Assembly: GCA_021851865.1 (NCBI GenBank)
Contig: JAJZBU010000012.1
Location: 1 to 64,000, forward strand
Direction of reading: 5' to 3'
DNA: 64,000 bases
DNA from: Pseudomonadota bacterium
GTDB lineage: Bacteria > Pseudomonadota > Gammaproteobacteria > Pseudomonadales > Moraxellaceae
The position numbers and the translations under genes are program-made. The notes beneath the pieces were generated by a model. It ran no database searches. It saw only the letters and a list, made by a program, of their open reading frames with translations, and was not told the DNA's origin. Below, piece by piece: positions 4,694 to 45,124 of this stretch (its first letter is position 1; each line of letters starts with the position of its first letter).

Positions 4694-6760
4694 ATGAAAG
4701 GCAGGTTATCGGTTTCATGCGTTGCAGACCAGGATGATTCAAAAGCCAAGCCGCCGCGCCGGGTACGATCACATGTACCGCAGCTCAGCGCGTGTTGCGC
4801 TGCGTTGCTGCTGGCGGCCTGTGGTGGTGGTGGCGGCGGTGGTGGCGGTGCTGCCGCCGTGTCCAGTGTGGTGGGTTCAGGACCATCGGCGTCGAGTCTG
4901 AGCGGCTCGGTCATGGGCGGGCAAAGTCCGGTGACGGGGTCGACCGTGGTGTTGTGGGCCTCAGGTCCGGTCGGCGGCGCGGCAACGCCGATCGCCAGCA
5001 CGACGACCAACGCCAACGGGAAGTTCACGCTGAGCTACACCAACCCCGGCGGCAGTGCGCTGCTGTACGTGACCGCCTACCAGGGCAACGCCGGCGCGGG
5101 GATCAATCCGCAACTGCAGATGGTCTCGGCGCTGGGGGTGGCCAGTGGGGTCAATACGTCGGCGACGATGACCGTGAACGAACTGACGACGGTGGCGTTC
5201 GCCGATGCGTTCGGCACGTCGTACACGTCAGCCGGGGTAGAAGGTGTGACCAGCCAGCAGGCGGGCATCGCTGCGGCCTTGGTCGAAACAGCCACGGGTA
5301 CGTTCAGTTCGACTTTACTCACCGCGGCCAATGCGACGACCGTCGAGACTTTGACGCTGAAGGCCGATGCGCTGGCCTCTTGCGTGCAGAGCAGCGGTGC
5401 ATCCGGCGGCAATTGCAGTACCATCATGAGCAGCAGTGGCGGTACCGCTGACGTTTTCCTCAGTGTCGTCAACTGGGCGACCAATTTCACCGCCGTGAAC
5501 TGGAGTGCGCTGTATGCGTTGGCGCAGGCGACGCCGGTCTTCGACCAGTCCAGCTACCCGATTTCGTCGCTGGCTAGCGGATTGCCGCAGATTCCCTACG
5601 TCAATATCACGGCGTCCTCGGCGAGTTCGAATGCGCTGCAATCGCCGCAGGGTATCGTGTTCGACCAGCAGTGCAACGCCTGGATCGGTTCGAGTCTGCA
5701 AGCGAACGGTTATCTGAGCAAGATCTCGGTGGGCAGTCCAGGGTTTCCGGCGACCGCAGCGACGGCGGCCGACGCGAATCTTCTGGTGCCAGACAACAAC
5801 GGCGGGTTTTTCTACGCCGCTTCGGCGGTCAACAATAGTGTCGCTGACCTCGATGCCAGCTCGATCGCGTCCGGCAACCTGATCGCCCCCAGCGGTCAGC
5901 TGGGCGGGACCTTCACGGCACCGCTGACCGGAATGGCGACCGACCCGAGCTTGACGACATCGTCGATTTCGGTGGCCTGGATCGCCGAGCAGGGAGGCGT
6001 GTGCCAGGGAACGACCGGCTACCAGGTGAACCAGCCCTGTTATGCGGTGAACAATCCTGGCCCAGTGGCGGTCGACGCGATAGGCAATTTGTTCGTCGGC
6101 AGCGCGGGCAGCGCCGTGGTCTGGGTGATTCCGAAAGGCACGCCGTACGGCTACCCGAGCGTCAACGGCATCACCGGCAACCAGCCGTCGATTTCGTGCA
6201 GTGTCGGTGGCGTGCCCAGTCAGATGGCGGTGGACAAAAGCGGCCATGTGTGGGTGCTCAGCAAAACTGGCAATACCCTGTCGGAGATCGGCGCATTCAG
6301 CGCGAGCACTCCGACGTGCAGTGTCGTCGCGGGTTGGAGTAACTTTCAGAGCCCCGATGCGCTGGCGATCGACGACGGTGGCAATGTCTGGGTCGCCAAT
6401 TCGGGCAATGGATCGATCGACGAGATCCCGGTGTCGAACAACTACTACAACAGCGTGCTGATGTTCACCAACTCGACGATCAATGCCCCAGTGAGCCTGG
6501 CCGTGGACCCGCTCGGTGACATCTGGGTGGCCAACAACGGTAGCAATAGTGTGACGGTGCTGTTCGGCATAGCCTCGCCGACCGGCACGTGCACGCCGCC
6601 GAGCCAGGGCTTGGTGTGGTCGGCTCCCACCAGCGATGCGAATTGGAGTCCGTCGATCTCGTCGGGCGCGTCCGCAACGGCAGCGTCGTCGAGCTCCAGT
6701 GGTGGTGGCTGGGGTCTGGATTGGTCGGGCATGTACACCGGGATCAACTTTTTCGACTGA
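4694..6760 (+). CDS. NHL/beta-propeller-type lipoprotein with polyglycine stretch
   Basis: 688 aa. A signal sequence ends in the lipobox LLAAC (C43), followed directly by a run of nine glycines, so the protein is probably a lipoprotein. Its signal n-region is unusually long (about 25 residues, PPRRVRSH before the hydrophobic core). Residues about 70-130 look like an extracellular Ig/carboxypeptidase-regulatory-like domain (NANGKFTLSYT). From about residue 310 onward at least five propeller blades repeat a pattern such as PDALAIDDGGNVWVANSGN and PVSLAVDPLGDIWVANNGS, typical of NHL repeats. The low-complexity Ser/Gly tail ends in GINFFD. NHL propellers usually bind proteins or carbohydrates; no ligand can be named. 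Confidence 0.7.
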   Translation: MKGRLSVSCVADQDDSKAKPPRRVRSHVPQLSACCAALLLAACGGGGGGGGGAAAVSSVVGSGPSASSLSGSVMGGQSPVTGSTVVLWASGPVGGAATPIASTTTNANGKFTLSYTNPGGSALLYVTAYQGNAGAGINPQLQMVSALGVASGVNTSATMTVNELTTVAFADAFGTSYTSAGVEGVTSQQAGIAAALVETATGTFSSTLLTAANATTVETLTLKADALASCVQSSGASGGNCSTIMSSSGGTADVFLSVVNWATNFTAVNWSALYALAQATPVFDQSSYPISSLASGLPQIPYVNITASSASSNALQSPQGIVFDQQCNAWIGSSLQANGYLSKISVGSPGFPATAATAADANLLVPDNNGGFFYAASAVNNSVADLDASSIASGNLIAPSGQLGGTFTAPLTGMATDPSLTTSSISVAWIAEQGGVCQGTTGYQVNQPCYAVNNPGPVAVDAIGNLFVGSAGSAVVWVIPKGTPYGYPSVNGITGNQPSISCSVGGVPSQMAVDKSGHVWVLSKTGNTLSEIGAFSASTPTCSVVAGWSNFQSPDALAIDDGGNVWVANSGNGSIDEIPVSNNYYNSVLMFTNSTINAPVSLAVDPLGDIWVANNGSNSVTVLFGIASPTGTCTPPSQGLVWSAPTSDANWSPSISSGASATAASSSSSGGGWGLDWSGMYTGINFFD

Positions 6761-34940: not shown

Positions 34941-38278
<3,338 letters not shown>

Positions 38279-38360
38279 AGCAAAGGCGGCGCTGAGCCCC
38301 CTAGAGTTCCATCTTGTCGCCAAGGATGCCAGTTACCCGCTGGCGTCCGACAAGCAGCCA

Positions 38361-38386
38361 CCGCGACCACAAGTCGCGGTTTTTTT
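38361..38386 (+). terminator. Rho-independent terminator of fadBA
   Basis: CCGCGAC (38361-38367) pairs with GTCGCGG (38373-38379) around CACAA, followed by seven T residues. It is the clearest terminator in the window and closes the fadBA operon before the SQR gene. Confidence 0.9.
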
Positions 38387-38460
38387 GCGCCAGGACAAAG
38401 AAGAAAGCGGCATGCCGTCTACACTGAAAACGCTGACATCAGTTAGGAAGGTGTGTGTCG

Positions 38461-39756
38461 ATGGCTCATATCGTGATTTTAGGAGCAGGGCTTGGCGGTA
38501 TGCCGGCGGCCTATGAGGCCAAGGCTTTGCTCGGTGCCGAGCATCGCGTTACGGTCATCAACGCGAGTGCGGACTTTCAATTTGTTCCCTCCAATCCCTG
38601 GCTGGCCGTCGGTTGGCGTCAGCGCCAGGACATCAGCTTTCCCATAGCGTCGTATCTGGCGCGCAAGAACATCGACTTCATCGCCCAGGTGGTGACGCAG
38701 ATCGATGCCGAGGCGCGTCGTCTGACCCTCGCTGATGGACGGCATGTCGATTATGACTGGCTCATCATCACCACCGGGCCGCAGCTGGCCTTTGACGATG
38801 TGCCCGGGGCGGGGCCGGAGACCGGCTACACGCAGTCCATCTGCCATCTCTCGCACGCCGAGACCTGTCACGAGGATTTCAAGCGCTTGTGCGCCGACCC
38901 CGGGCCGGTCATCATCGGCGCCCTGCCCGGTGCCAGTTGTTTCGGGCCGGCCTATGAATATGCCATGATCCTGGACACCGAGTTGCGGCGGCGCAAATTG
39001 CGCAGCAAGGTGCCGATCCTGTATGTGACGCCCGAGCCTTATCTCGGTCATCTCGGCCTCGATGGCGTCGGTGACTCCAAGGGCATCATGGAGCACGAGT
39101 TCCGCGAACAGGGCATACGCTGGATCACCAATGCTCGCACGACGCGCATCAGCGCCGGCGTCATGCAAGTCGAGGAACTCGATGCGCAGGGGCAGGTGAT
39201 CAAAACGCATGAGCTGCCTTTTCGTCACAGCATGATGCTGCCGGCCTTCAAGGGGGTGGCGGCGGTCGCCGCCGTGCCGGAGTTGTGCAATGCGCGCGGC
39301 TTTGTCATCGTCGATGAGTTTCAGCGCAGCCCCAAGTACAAGTCGATCTATGCGGCGGGGGTCTGCATCGCCATCCCCCCCGTCGGGCCGACGCCGGTGC
39401 CCTGTGGTGTGCCCAAGACCGGCTACATGATCGAGTCCATGGTCACCGCCATCGTGCACAACATCGAAGAGGAACTGCAGGGCCGTCTGCCGCGGCACAA
39501 AGGCTCCTGGCAGGCTCTCTGTCTCGCCGACTTCGGGCGCACCGGCGCCATGTTCGCAGCGATTCCACAGATCCCGCCACGTGACACCAACTGGTTCGTG
39601 TCGGGACGCTGGGTGCACTATGCCAAGATCGCTTTCGAAAAGTATTTCATCCGCAAGATGAAGATCGGCAGCTCGGAACCGATGTACGAGAAGTACATGA
39701 TGAAGCTGATTGGGTTCAAACGTCTACAGGACAAGATCTTGCCGCGTAAGGGGTGA
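38461..39756 (+). CDS. sqr: Sulfide:quinone oxidoreductase
   Basis: 431 aa. FAD-dependent, membrane-associated enzyme oxidising sulfide and reducing quinone. The N-terminal dinucleotide motif is VILGAGLGGMPAA. All three catalytic cysteines are present: C128 (SICHL), C160 (GASCFGPAYE) and C354 (ALCLADFG), matching C128, C160 and C356 of the Acidithiobacillus enzyme. The amphipathic C-terminus (WVHYAKIAFEKYFIRKMK) is the membrane anchor. ATG 38461 has AGGAAGG 9 nt upstream; a GTG two codons earlier is possible. Likely used for sulfide detoxification or supplementary electron input; other sulfur genes are absent nearby. Confidence 0.93.
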   Translation: MAHIVILGAGLGGMPAAYEAKALLGAEHRVTVINASADFQFVPSNPWLAVGWRQRQDISFPIASYLARKNIDFIAQVVTQIDAEARRLTLADGRHVDYDWLIITTGPQLAFDDVPGAGPETGYTQSICHLSHAETCHEDFKRLCADPGPVIIGALPGASCFGPAYEYAMILDTELRRRKLRSKVPILYVTPEPYLGHLGLDGVGDSKGIMEHEFREQGIRWITNARTTRISAGVMQVEELDAQGQVIKTHELPFRHSMMLPAFKGVAAVAAVPELCNARGFVIVDEFQRSPKYKSIYAAGVCIAIPPVGPTPVPCGVPKTGYMIESMVTAIVHNIEEELQGRLPRHKGSWQALCLADFGRTGAMFAAIPQIPPRDTNWFVSGRWVHYAKIAFEKYFIRKMKIGSSEPMYEKYMMKLIGFKRLQDKILPRKG

Positions 39757-39765
39757 GGTGTGGTG

Positions 39766-40152
39766 ATGACGAACCTATTGAAGGAACTCGAGTCCTGGCG
39801 TCACGAGTTTCTCCTCGCCATGATGCAAGGGACGCCGCTCGATGTGGAGCGCATCATGGGGCCCCATGCCTGTCGTCTAGGCCGGTGGCTCGTCGGGCCG
39901 GGGCGGCGTTACGCCGATCAGCCCTGGTATGGTCAGATGCTCGACGAACATCTCGGCTTCCATCGCGAAGCGGGTCGTCTGGCGGTATTGCTCAATCGTG
40001 GCTGCTATGCCGAGGTCGAGGCGGGTTTGCGCCCTGGCGCTGAGTATGCGCGTCGTGCGCAGGTCTTGCAGGAACTGTTGCGCCAGCATCTCGAGCACCT
40101 CGCAGAAGAGCCCGCACAGGGCCGGCGGTCAGAGAATGGTGCGGTCGCGTAG
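39766..40152 (+). CDS. Small CZB (zinc-binding) domain protein
   Basis: 128 aa. Nearly the entire protein is a chemoreceptor zinc-binding (CZB) domain: a first His in SWRHEFLLAM, then HACRLGRWLVGPG with the key Cys, and EHLGFHREAG with two further His, giving the 3His/1Cys zinc set. CZB domains usually sit at the end of chemoreceptors or diguanylate cyclases and sense zinc or oxidants; here it is alone. The gene starts 9 nt after the sqr stop (GAGG within the gap), so the two are probably one operon. Its 3' end overlaps the convergent adenylate cyclase gene by 24 bp. Confidence 0.8.
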   Translation: MTNLLKELESWRHEFLLAMMQGTPLDVERIMGPHACRLGRWLVGPGRRYADQPWYGQMLDEHLGFHREAGRLAVLLNRGCYAEVEAGLRPGAEYARRAQVLQELLRQHLEHLAEEPAQGRRSENGAVA

Positions 40153-41535
40153 ATTGCGCGCTGCGCTCTCCAAGGCCTGTACGATGCGATCCTTGTCATA
40201 GTTCTTGAGCTTGTTCAGGTCGAGGTGCATGGTAAAACCGTCGAACTCATGTTCGATGAAGCTCGATTGTGCGCCCAGATCACGCCGGAAATCGACGACG
40301 CTCCACACCTGGACGGGGCGGCTGATGCCCTTGACGGTGATCAAGCCTTTTTCCTTGCACAGGATGCGTTCGCGCACCAGCAGATAAGTCTCGTGGGCGA
40401 TGAGGATTTCATCCGGCTGCGCCGCGGTCTGCAGGCGCGCGGCGAGGTTGGCTTCGCGGCCGATGATGGTGTAATCCATGCGCGATTCGCTGCCAAAATT
40501 GCCGACATGACAAAATCCCGTGGTCAGGCCCATGCGCACATGCAAGGGTTTGAGGATGCCTTGTGCCTGCCAGCGATGGCGCAACACCTTCATCATATTG
40601 CGCATGTCGATGGCCATGGAAACGCAGGCGAGGGCGTCCTCGCGCGTCCCTAGCGATTTCGGGTCGCCAAAGAAGATGAGGATGGCATCGCCGATGAACT
40701 TGTCGATGGTGCCGCCATACTTCAGGGCAATGCGCGACATCTGGTCGAAATAGTGATTGATCATTTCGGTCAGGGCGTCGGGCGACATCTCGTCCGTCGT
40801 TTCGGTGAAGTCCTTGATGTCGGAGAAAAAGATGGTCAGTTTTTTGCGGTGGGTCTGCAGTTTTACATCGCGACGACCGGAAAAGATCGATTCCCAGACC
40901 TGCGGTGGCAGGTATTTGACCAGTTTGCGTGACAGCAGGATGGCTTCCTGCTGTTGTTGCACGACTTGGTTGCGCGCTTGCAGAAAGGCCTGATACTGCT
41001 TGCGCGTGTAGTAGGCATTGAGACCGATGAAACATATGGTGCCGAGGCCGGCCCCCAGGCTGAGCGGCCAGGGCGCGGATAGGTGCGGGTGGAGACCGAA
41101 CACAGTCATGCCGGAGAGGGCGCCGATGATGACGAAGACCATGCTCGTAGCCCAGGCCTGGCTGGCGGCGCGATGCAGGACCGCGGCATTGAGCATGATG
41201 GCAAAGAAGAGGCTGATCGTCAGGCTGAACTGGATGGCGGCCATCGACAGTCCCATCACCCAGCCATCGAGGACGACCTCAAGCGAACGCTGGCGCTCGG
41301 GGGAACCCGCCCAGCGCTCTTCGATCCAGGGGAGCAGCCAGGGATAGAGGCATAGACCGGGCAAGAGCAGGAGCAGGCGGTGCTCAAAAAAGCCTATCGC
41401 CACGCCCCAGGCGATGACGATGGCGACGACCATGAAGGAAAGCTGTCGTGTTCGCCTGAGCGGAGTTTGCGAAAAATCGTTGAAATCGGACGACGGGGGC
41501 ATGCCTGGCGCATCCTGAGCTGGGCCGACTTCCAT
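40129..41535 (-). CDS. cyaB: MASE2-domain class III adenylate cyclase
   Basis: 468 aa. The N-terminal MASE2 membrane sensor (about 25-175) has several transmembrane helices; a coiled linker (NQVVQQQQEAILL) leads to a class III cyclase domain with metal aspartates D239 (FFSDIKDFTET) and D283 (FIGDAILIFFGDP) and the nucleotide region MDYTIIGREANLAARL. The architecture is that of Pseudomonas CyaB, which supplies cAMP to Vfr. No vfr gene is seen in the window; a stand-alone cNMP-binding protein lies at 30603. Confidence 0.9.
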   Translation of the reverse strand: MEVGPAQDAPGMPPSSDFNDFSQTPLRRTRQLSFMVVAIVIAWGVAIGFFEHRLLLLLPGLCLYPWLLPWIEERWAGSPERQRSLEVVLDGWVMGLSMAAIQFSLTISLFFAIMLNAAVLHRAASQAWATSMVFVIIGALSGMTVFGLHPHLSAPWPLSLGAGLGTICFIGLNAYYTRKQYQAFLQARNQVVQQQQEAILLSRKLVKYLPPQVWESIFSGRRDVKLQTHRKKLTIFFSDIKDFTETTDEMSPDALTEMINHYFDQMSRIALKYGGTIDKFIGDAILIFFGDPKSLGTREDALACVSMAIDMRNMMKVLRHRWQAQGILKPLHVRMGLTTGFCHVGNFGSESRMDYTIIGREANLAARLQTAAQPDEILIAHETYLLVRERILCKEKGLITVKGISRPVQVWSVVDFRRDLGAQSSFIEHEFDGFTMHLDLNKLKNYDKDRIVQALESAARNLRDRTIL

Positions 41536-41743: not shown

Positions 41744-42520
41744 TCACGTGCCGTGTTGTCTGCAACGGCCGGAAACGCCTTCCTCGCCGCCTAGGGAGAT
41801 ACGGCAGAGGGCCTCTTTGTCGAGGACGGTGATCTCTTTGCCTTCGACCACCAGAACGGTTTGTGTCTGGAAACGGGTGAAGATGCGGCTCACGGTTTCA
41901 ACGGCCAGCCCCAGGTAGTTGCCGATGTCGGAACGCGACATGGGGAGGCGAAAACTGTACTCGGACAGGCGCCGACGCTTATAGCGCTCCGCCAGACTGA
42001 GAAGAAGAGAGGCGATACGCGATTCGGCGGTCTTTTTGCTGAGCAGGAGCATGAGCAGTTGGTTGGTCTGAATCTCTTTGCTCATCAGTTTGAAGAAATG
42101 GTTCTGCAGGCTGGGAATGTCATGGCTGAGTTCCTGCAGTTGCTGGAAGGGGATCTCGCAGACCGAGGTCGTTTCCAGAGCGACTGCAGAACTGGTATGG
42201 GTGTCGGTGTGGATGCCATCCATGCCGACGACTTCGCCGGGCAGGTAAAAACCGGTGACTTGTTCTTCGCCCGAGTCGGTGGTGGTATAGACTTTGAGTG
42301 CTCCCGAGCGCACGGCGTAGATGCCTTCGAAAGGGTTGTTCTCGCGATACAGGTGGTCACCACGGTGCAAGGGACGGGATCTTTGGATGATGGCATCCAG
42401 GCGGTGCAGGTCTTCGATATCAATGGCCACAGGCAGGCAGATGGGACTGAGGGAGCAATCGACACACTGAGCATGCGCCTGATGACGGAAGCTCAAGGGT
42501 CGGTGCGAAAGGTCATCCAT
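41744..42520 (-). CDS. fnr: FNR/Anr-type oxygen-sensing transcription regulator
   Basis: 258 aa. CRP-fold activator with the oxygen-labile [4Fe-4S] cysteines C19, C22, C28 and C121, one residue off the E. coli FNR numbering (20, 23, 29, 122). The recognition helix contains VETVSR, whose Glu, Ser and Arg read TTGAT half-sites. The start has AGGA 7 nt upstream. Under low oxygen it should activate hemN, whose promoter carries a matching site. In Pseudomonadales the gene is called anr. Confidence 0.95.
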   Translation of the reverse strand: MDDLSHRPLSFRHQAHAQCVDCSLSPICLPVAIDIEDLHRLDAIIQRSRPLHRGDHLYRENNPFEGIYAVRSGALKVYTTTDSGEEQVTGFYLPGEVVGMDGIHTDTHTSSAVALETTSVCEIPFQQLQELSHDIPSLQNHFFKLMSKEIQTNQLLMLLLSKKTAESRIASLLLSLAERYKRRRLSEYSFRLPMSRSDIGNYLGLAVETVSRIFTRFQTQTVLVVEGKEITVLDKEALCRISLGGEEGVSGRCRQHGT

Positions 42521-44047: not shown

Positions 44048-44088
44048 ATTGTACCTAAAAAGCTGGAGTTCTGTTTGACCTGTATCAA
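44048..44088 (-). promoter_or_regulatory. Class II FNR-dependent promoter of hemN
   Basis: TTGAC-CTGT-ATCAA at 44075-44088 departs from the FNR consensus TTGAT-N4-ATCAA at one base. On the minus strand a -10 box TACAAT lies at 44053-44048, so the expected start near 44041 is about 41 nt from the centre of the box, the class II spacing. The regulator gene itself lies just downstream of hemN. Confidence 0.75.
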
Positions 44089-44248: not shown

Positions 44249-45124
44249 ATGCAACAGCTCCTGGCGGTGATCGATCATGGGGAGGCTGCGCAGCGCGTTG
44301 TGCGCGTCGCCGCGCGTTGGGCGCAACGATCGGGCGCACAGCTGTCGGTGTTTTTGCCGGTGGCGCTGTCCATGCCCAAGGGACTGGAGTTGGGGCCCGG
44401 ATTGTTGGCGACTGTCGAGCACACGAGTGAGATGGAAGCCATGGACTGGCTGCAGACCTTTCTCGAGCAGCATCACATCGCAGCAGAGCAGCACGCTGCC
44501 GCCAGTCGTCATTGGGTGCGGGCGATCCAGCATGAAGTCGAGCGCATGCAGCCTGACTTGGTTTTCATCGCCCCTGACGTCGCGCCTAAGGCCGGATGTT
44601 GGAAGCAGTTGCTGCGGCAATTGGCGCGTCCGACCTATATCGTCCATCAGGACATCGTGCCCCAGCATTTTCGGGTGGCGATCAGCTGTTTGCCCGATGA
44701 TGTGCCGCATAGCCTGCTCAATGACGCACTGCTCGGCTGGGGGCAGCGTCTGGCGCAATTGTGGCAGGGCGATCTGTGGGTGAGCAGCGCGTTGCCGAGC
44801 CCGCTCGAGATGGCGCCGATGGTCGGCGAGACCTATGCCGTCGGTTATGTCGAAGCGTCGATGCAAGATGCCATGCGCCAGGGCTTGCAGGAGTTGCTGC
44901 AGACGCATGGTGTGCCGGTGGAGCGATTGACCACGGGAGTGGGATCGATCGAGGCGGTGCTTTTGCAGCAACAGGCGCAGCAGGCGGCGGATTGTCTGCT
45001 CGTCGGCACGGTCGCGCGCTCGGCTCTGTCGGCTTTTCTGGTAGGCAATTCTGCCGAAGTTCTGGAAAAAAGATTGCCGTGTGATCTGCTCTTGTTGCAT
45101 CCCCAGGATCTTCAGGAGGACTGA
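44249..45124 (+). CDS. Tandem universal stress protein (UspE-like)
   Basis: 291 aa, two Usp domains in tandem (about 1-140 and 145-288). The second ends in LLVGTVARSALSAFLVGNSAEVL, carrying a G-x2-x9-G-(S/T)-like nucleotide loop. GGGAGG precedes the ATG by 7 nt. In Pseudomonas, several Usps are Anr-induced for anaerobic survival; this one is divergent from hemN with its FNR site, so co-regulation is possible but the box is about 165 bp away. Confidence 0.85.
   Translation: MQQLLAVIDHGEAAQRVVRVAARWAQRSGAQLSVFLPVALSMPKGLELGPGLLATVEHTSEMEAMDWLQTFLEQHHIAAEQHAAASRHWVRAIQHEVERMQPDLVFIAPDVAPKAGCWKQLLRQLARPTYIVHQDIVPQHFRVAISCLPDDVPHSLLNDALLGWGQRLAQLWQGDLWVSSALPSPLEMAPMVGETYAVGYVEASMQDAMRQGLQELLQTHGVPVERLTTGVGSIEAVLLQQQAQQAADCLLVGTVARSALSAFLVGNSAEVLEKRLPCDLLLLHPQDLQED

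Follow-up and report, generated by a model that had tools for sequence, protein, structure and literature searches.

The locus described here raises the question of whether a sulfide:quinone oxidoreductase (SQR) and the free-standing CZB-like protein encoded directly behind it work together. The window, by which we mean the whole stretch of 64,000 nucleotides that was analysed, carries sqr (431 aa, with conserved C128, C160 and C354) at 38461..39756 and czb (128 aa) at 39766..40152, both on the plus strand. The sqr stop and the czb start are separated by 9 nt, and a ribosome-binding-like AAGGGGTGAGGTG, read by eye, is located immediately 5' of the czb ATG. The extent of 38461-40152, the spacing and the protein length given by an earlier sequence-only reading were all correct. 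Upstream, a terminator-like site with an 8-pair stem and a T run (38360..38387, plus strand) is located in the gap between fadBA and sqr, and a hairpin with a T run is likewise found upstream in the two other genomes of the genus, G001 and G002 (the window genome being G000). Downstream, a MASE2/class III nucleotidyl cyclase gene (40129..41535, minus strand) is convergent to the pair, and its stop codon falls within the tail of czb, closing the unit. The two genes therefore form a tight unit, running from the terminator-like site to the convergent gene, in all three genus genomes. The spacing is 9 nt in the window, 9 nt in G002 and 11 nt in G001.

No sigma-70-like promoter was found over positions 38200-40300. 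Control of sqr by FNR/ANR was considered and is not supported, as there is no perfect FNR-like box ahead of the gene; of the two perfect boxes in the window, one precedes hemN and the other falls within the cyclase gene. The former, at 44075-44088, is positioned just 5' of hemN, and its neighbours include the genes for a CRP/FNR-type regulator (41747-42520) and for a universal stress protein (44249-45121). A read-through fusion of the two proteins was also rejected: sqr and czb share one frame in the window and in G002 (a stop plus 9 nt), and the 11 nt spacing in G001 puts them out of frame.

The SQR was identified by comparison with the Acidithiobacillus ferrooxidans enzyme (3sz0), which is called type I. 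The alignment covered 429 residues (568 bits, E 9e-170), and Cys128, Cys160 and Cys354 each stood opposite a cysteine of the A. ferrooxidans chain, with positions counted from the alignment. The enzyme is thus alike over its full length and in all three cysteines, as expected from its earlier description as a canonical three-cysteine SQR, and no difference relevant to function was seen; the CZB neighbour, however, is not part of the A. ferrooxidans system. The window SQR is an ordinary, known enzyme, predicted from its sequence to oxidise sulfide with quinone.

CZB domains hold a zinc ion through three histidines and one cysteine, and the zinc occupancy shifts with oxidation of the cysteine or with zinc availability, as described in the available parts of PMC8262984 and of the preprint PMC13370339. 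CZB-only proteins account for 27.1% of the 10,140 CZB sequences considered in the former, and CZB sensing has so far been linked to bleach, other oxidants, oxygen, pH and metals (PMC8262984; PMC13370339). The czb product matched the Pfam CZB family (PF13682) at 25.8 bits (E 1.4e-5), which does not reach the curated cut-off of 29.4, and the match begins at residue 20 and so omits the first zinc-ligand position. The proteins of G001 and G002 scored 23.0 and 23.9 bits, again under the cut-off, while the eight other free-standing CZB proteins that were scanned all scored 38-57 bits. A survey at the Pfam cut-off would therefore miss the sqr-linked branch (23.0-25.8 bits). Despite the low score, the aligned motifs support a descent of czb from the CZB family.

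When 12 free-standing CZB proteins were aligned, Cys36, His62 and His66 proved to be conserved throughout (12/12). The histidine of the HxxW motif, which provides the first ligand, was present in 11 of the 12, the exception being the window protein with Leu8. The complete 3His/1Cys motif is thus lacking in the window czb, and all four ligands are retained in G001 and G002. Leu8 could also be an assembly error. The earlier description of a protein that is only a zinc-binding CZB domain accordingly holds for the homology, but zinc binding is putative for the window protein, where the first ligand is replaced. This loss weakens, for the window genome, the zinc-centre chemistry that had been proposed. 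A weak AlphaFold2 model, built on an alignment of only three sequences, gave six helices with a mean pLDDT of 53, and a PDB search with the protein returned no match at E <= 1.

Similar to the CZB-only class described in PMC8262984, czb encodes a single domain of about 110-130 aa with the CxLGxW and HxxxH motifs. Unlike that class, the genus proteins are encoded behind sqr and score under the Pfam cut-off, and the window copy is without the first ligand histidine. The CZB domains of TlpD, McpA and DgcZ, where according to the literature the cysteine forms a reactive lid over the zinc, belong to the same family; czb differs from them in that its product carries neither a chemoreceptor nor a GGDEF output domain.

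Conservation of the pair was analysed within the genus. In all three genomes sqr is followed by czb, which goes against the pairing being unique to one genome, the outcome that the sequence-only reading had named as contrary to its proposal. The order fadB-fadA-sqr-czb-cyclase-fnr-hemN is kept, with G002 read over two contigs that meet inside czb. As the whole stretch is syntenic in the genus, the kept adjacency taken by itself argues only weakly for a functional link, and its conservation is not above the background of that stretch. Between the species, silent substitutions in sqr and czb approach saturation, yet the gene order persists. The G002 contigs C84 and C71 end in or near czb, and their alleles differ by 5 codons in 110, which suggests mixed strains in this metagenome-assembled genome.

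Among the nine neighbouring genes compared, czb was the fastest-changing; for G002 the comparison covered fadB and usp in part and lacked a counterpart of the second thiolase. Its identity to the window protein was 70% in G002 and 52% in G001, compared to 96% and 87% for sqr; of the eight other genes, seven ranged over 86-98% and usp over 67-88%. The dN/dS values of czb (NG86), which are rough given a dS near 1, were 0.17 for window-G002, 0.43 for window-G001 and 0.54 for G002-G001, and those of sqr were 0.02, 0.08 and 0.06 over the three species pairs. An accelerated decay of the window czb was not supported, since the window and G002 copies carried eight unique residues each. Given the homologues beside SQR in both other genus genomes and the dN/dS range of 0.17-0.54, czb is a real gene, loosely maintained under purifying selection.

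These values bear on the reading that czb is a gene on its way out, the pair being a relic in which the window protein no longer binds zinc. The leucine at the first ligand position and the fast change of czb agree with such a loss, as does the state of the second CZB gene of the window genome, a broken remnant (G000:C16:29735-29902; about 7736-7903 of L041, minus strand) of which the start and roughly the C-terminal half survive, in frames that differ, while the Cys region is missing. We nevertheless consider a gene in the course of being lost quite improbable, as the window-G002 dN/dS is 0.17, unique residues are equal on both branches, and Cys36, His62 and His66 are retained.

To place the pair in a wider context, SQR loci outside the genus were collected. 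A total of 141 non-genus matches were obtained: 30 in an order sample of 390 genomes, 106 in a class sample of 369 genomes and 5 strong ones in 9 genus and family genomes. The order and class searches were performed at E <= 1e-100. Neighbourhoods were covered for 122 of the 141 loci, that is, for all except 17 low-ranked class matches, G478 and G020, with flanks of 1.5-2 kb, or less where a contig ended (the downstream side was under 250 bases at one locus). The CZB profile was applied to every reading frame of the 122 loci and of the three genus loci, and the count of adjacent genes rests on this profile.

A CZB gene directly downstream of SQR was found at none of the 122 non-genus loci, the SQRs nearest in the tree included. 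Over the 125 loci the profile recovered four CZBs, those of the three genus members and one in G759, where a CZB-type gene is located about 1.6 kb from the SQR on the other strand, within an open frame of 520 aa. The survey that the sequence-only reading had proposed hence bears out the pairing in the genus (3/3) but not at other SQR loci (0/122). This absence makes a general SQR partner unlikely, and czb is not a conserved SQR subunit. As far as these loci go, sqr-czb is a genuine, genus-restricted gene pair, whose coupling is possible and putative.

A dedicated partner of SQR would be a CZB protein that binds the enzyme or takes persulfide or polysulfide at Cys36, acting as a sulfide or zinc-sulfide sensor or as a sulfur carrier. 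The arrangement of the two genes, co-directional and 9-11 nt apart in three species, is what such a role would predict, and Cys36 is present in all 12 aligned CZB proteins. The empty 122 loci speak against it, together with the far faster change of czb than of sqr (70%/52% against 96%/87% identity) and the missing first-ligand histidine in the window, and we regard a dedicated partner as unlikely.

Two other arrangements were seen downstream of SQR genes. In sister genera of the same family (L050, L052, L053), a small redox-type protein is also encoded 10-20 nt behind sqr, but it is thioredoxin-like with an extra CxxC pair (by eye) rather than CZB, and the SQR belongs to a different clade. At eight further loci (L132, L136, L138, L143, L152, L159 and two more), one family of PAS-like regulators, the domain type being assigned by eye, follows SQR on the same strand, at 58-120 nt among the six loci listed.

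The ancestry of the enzyme was obtained from a tree of 125 SQRs, built by a quick method with no bootstrap. In this tree, the SQRs of family f164 form the sister group of the three genus SQRs (support 99), f204 and G815 join this group (support 95), and four other SQRs of the window's own family are placed apart, among SQRs of the same and other orders. This position suggests that the genus SQR was acquired from another lineage of the class. As the nearest SQRs in the tree have no CZB neighbour, sqr and czb probably came together within the genus itself.

The surroundings of the remaining CZB genes of the family were also compared. A match to the CZB alignment that we built was found in 15 of 299 family genomes, the three genus members included, with some frames partial or broken. 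The regions covered around the CZB genes of family members outside the genus contained no SQR; in G019 and G021 it is on a contig other than that of the CZB gene. In G004 and G019, both of the sister genus g3, the CZB gene is part of a fliJ-czb-STAS-cheY-cheA-cheW cluster (names by eye), and these cluster CZBs are the nearest relatives. Another CZB gene is beside a chemoreceptor-like gene in G005 and G020 (g4), and a further one is beside a hemerythrin-like gene in G004 and G030, both by eye. No flagellar or chemotaxis, chemoreceptor-like or hemerythrin-like neighbour was seen at the CZB genes of G021, G284, G076 and G011. The G019 cluster frame contains an in-frame stop (L015, G019:C48, about 5727-6050); the loss of CZB-only genes may thus be under way in several genera of the family.

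These surroundings would fit a bystander, that is, a CZB-only signalling protein for chemotaxis or second-messenger control that came to lie behind sqr by chance. The chemotaxis-cluster genes of G004 and G019, the chemoreceptor-like neighbours in G005 and G020 and the hemerythrin-like ones in G004 and G030 are in line with this, as are twelve CZB loci from other families, which had varied neighbours and no SQR by eye. The window genome has eight CheW matches over four contigs, and a chemotaxis-type output therefore exists in it. The co-directional placement of czb, tightly spaced behind sqr in three species, argues against chance, and we consider a bystander possible but on the unlikely side. 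Apart from the remnant, no further CZB gene was detected in G000, and G001 and G002 had no CZB match outside the pair. With no other intact CZB gene found in the genus genomes, a CZB chemoreceptor or CZB cyclase is probably not the partner of czb there.

The reading that we prefer, though tentatively and with less than even confidence, joins an acquired SQR to a CZB-only protein encoded behind it, which would be a co-expressed redox/zinc switch acting in trans. A divergent CZB-only member would have come to sit behind the acquired sqr, and its product would be made together with SQR. The protein would be small, soluble and helical and would work through protein contact, with Cys36 as the putative reactive residue. 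The trigger may be sulfide or polysulfide products that alter the pool of labile zinc or of thiols; sulfide is a strong ligand of zinc and hence could act through it. The main text of the preprint PMC13370339 makes no use of the word sulfide. The chemotaxis apparatus, the neighbouring cyclase and SQR itself are candidate targets. The missing first-ligand histidine of the window copy and the synteny of the whole stretch count against this reading.

Co-occurrence across genomes was analysed in a class sample of 274 genomes, by scoring each for a type-I-like SQR and for a CZB protein, whatever its domain architecture (E <= 1e-6). Both were present in 41 genomes, CZB only in 21, SQR only in 33 and neither in 179. 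With one genome per family (157 families, the window left out), the respective counts were 25, 12, 18 and 102, giving an odds ratio of 11.8 (p 3e-9); which genomes belong to the sets of 274 and 157 was deduced from genome numbering, and kinship above the family level was ignored. The pooled odds ratio stratified by CheW was 8.0 for the 157 families and 6.8 for all 274 genomes. The effect was clear at 1-2 and 3-5 CheW matches and weaker at six or more (odds ratio 3.3, p 0.07), and no genome without CheW matches had both. Chemotaxis alone, considered as the cause, explains part of the association. The cbb3 oxidase is a marker of microaerobic life, and taken alone it was associated with CZB more strongly than SQR was (odds ratio 17.5). 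In a lightly penalised logistic model with SQR, cbb3 and CheW, the odds ratio was 6.6 for SQR (p 5e-5) and 4.3 for cbb3 (p 0.04); redox lifestyle alone likewise explains part.

Among the places compared, only G759 had a CZB gene within 35 kb of SQR on a shared contig. The association is thus one between genomes and not a gene linkage, and may reflect ecology, namely life at redox gradients. Its presence over families allows a loose link for the preferred reading and also speaks for a dedicated SQR partner. It is furthermore the lead, at an adjusted odds ratio of 6.6, for a broader view in which CZB proteins are generally sulfide-responsive. Sulfide would capture labile zinc or modify the zinc-site cysteine, sulfide oxidisers would keep CZB sensors, and sqr-czb would be the one case among the loci covered in which enzyme and sensor are encoded in one unit, with the window species drifting to a zinc-free, purely thiol-based version. 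We give this broader view only a slim chance.

One open-access library contained no paper joining "CZB domain" with "sulfide quinone oxidoreductase", in agreement with the initial impression that no SQR-CZB unit had been described, and "CZB" was not found among the matches listed in a further search of that library. Free-standing CZB proteins as such are already published and SQR is known; czb belongs, as a divergent member, to a class already described. No function of free-standing CZB proteins is named in the available parts of PMC8262984 and PMC13370339. As it stands, sqr-czb is a genus-level arrangement. Should SQR and the CZB protein act as one unit, CZB sensing would be connected to sulfide metabolism, and a function would be suggested for the free-standing CZB proteins. 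Whatever the pair does, the statistical co-occurrence of CZB with SQR over families makes a possible sulfide response of known CZB proteins worth attention.
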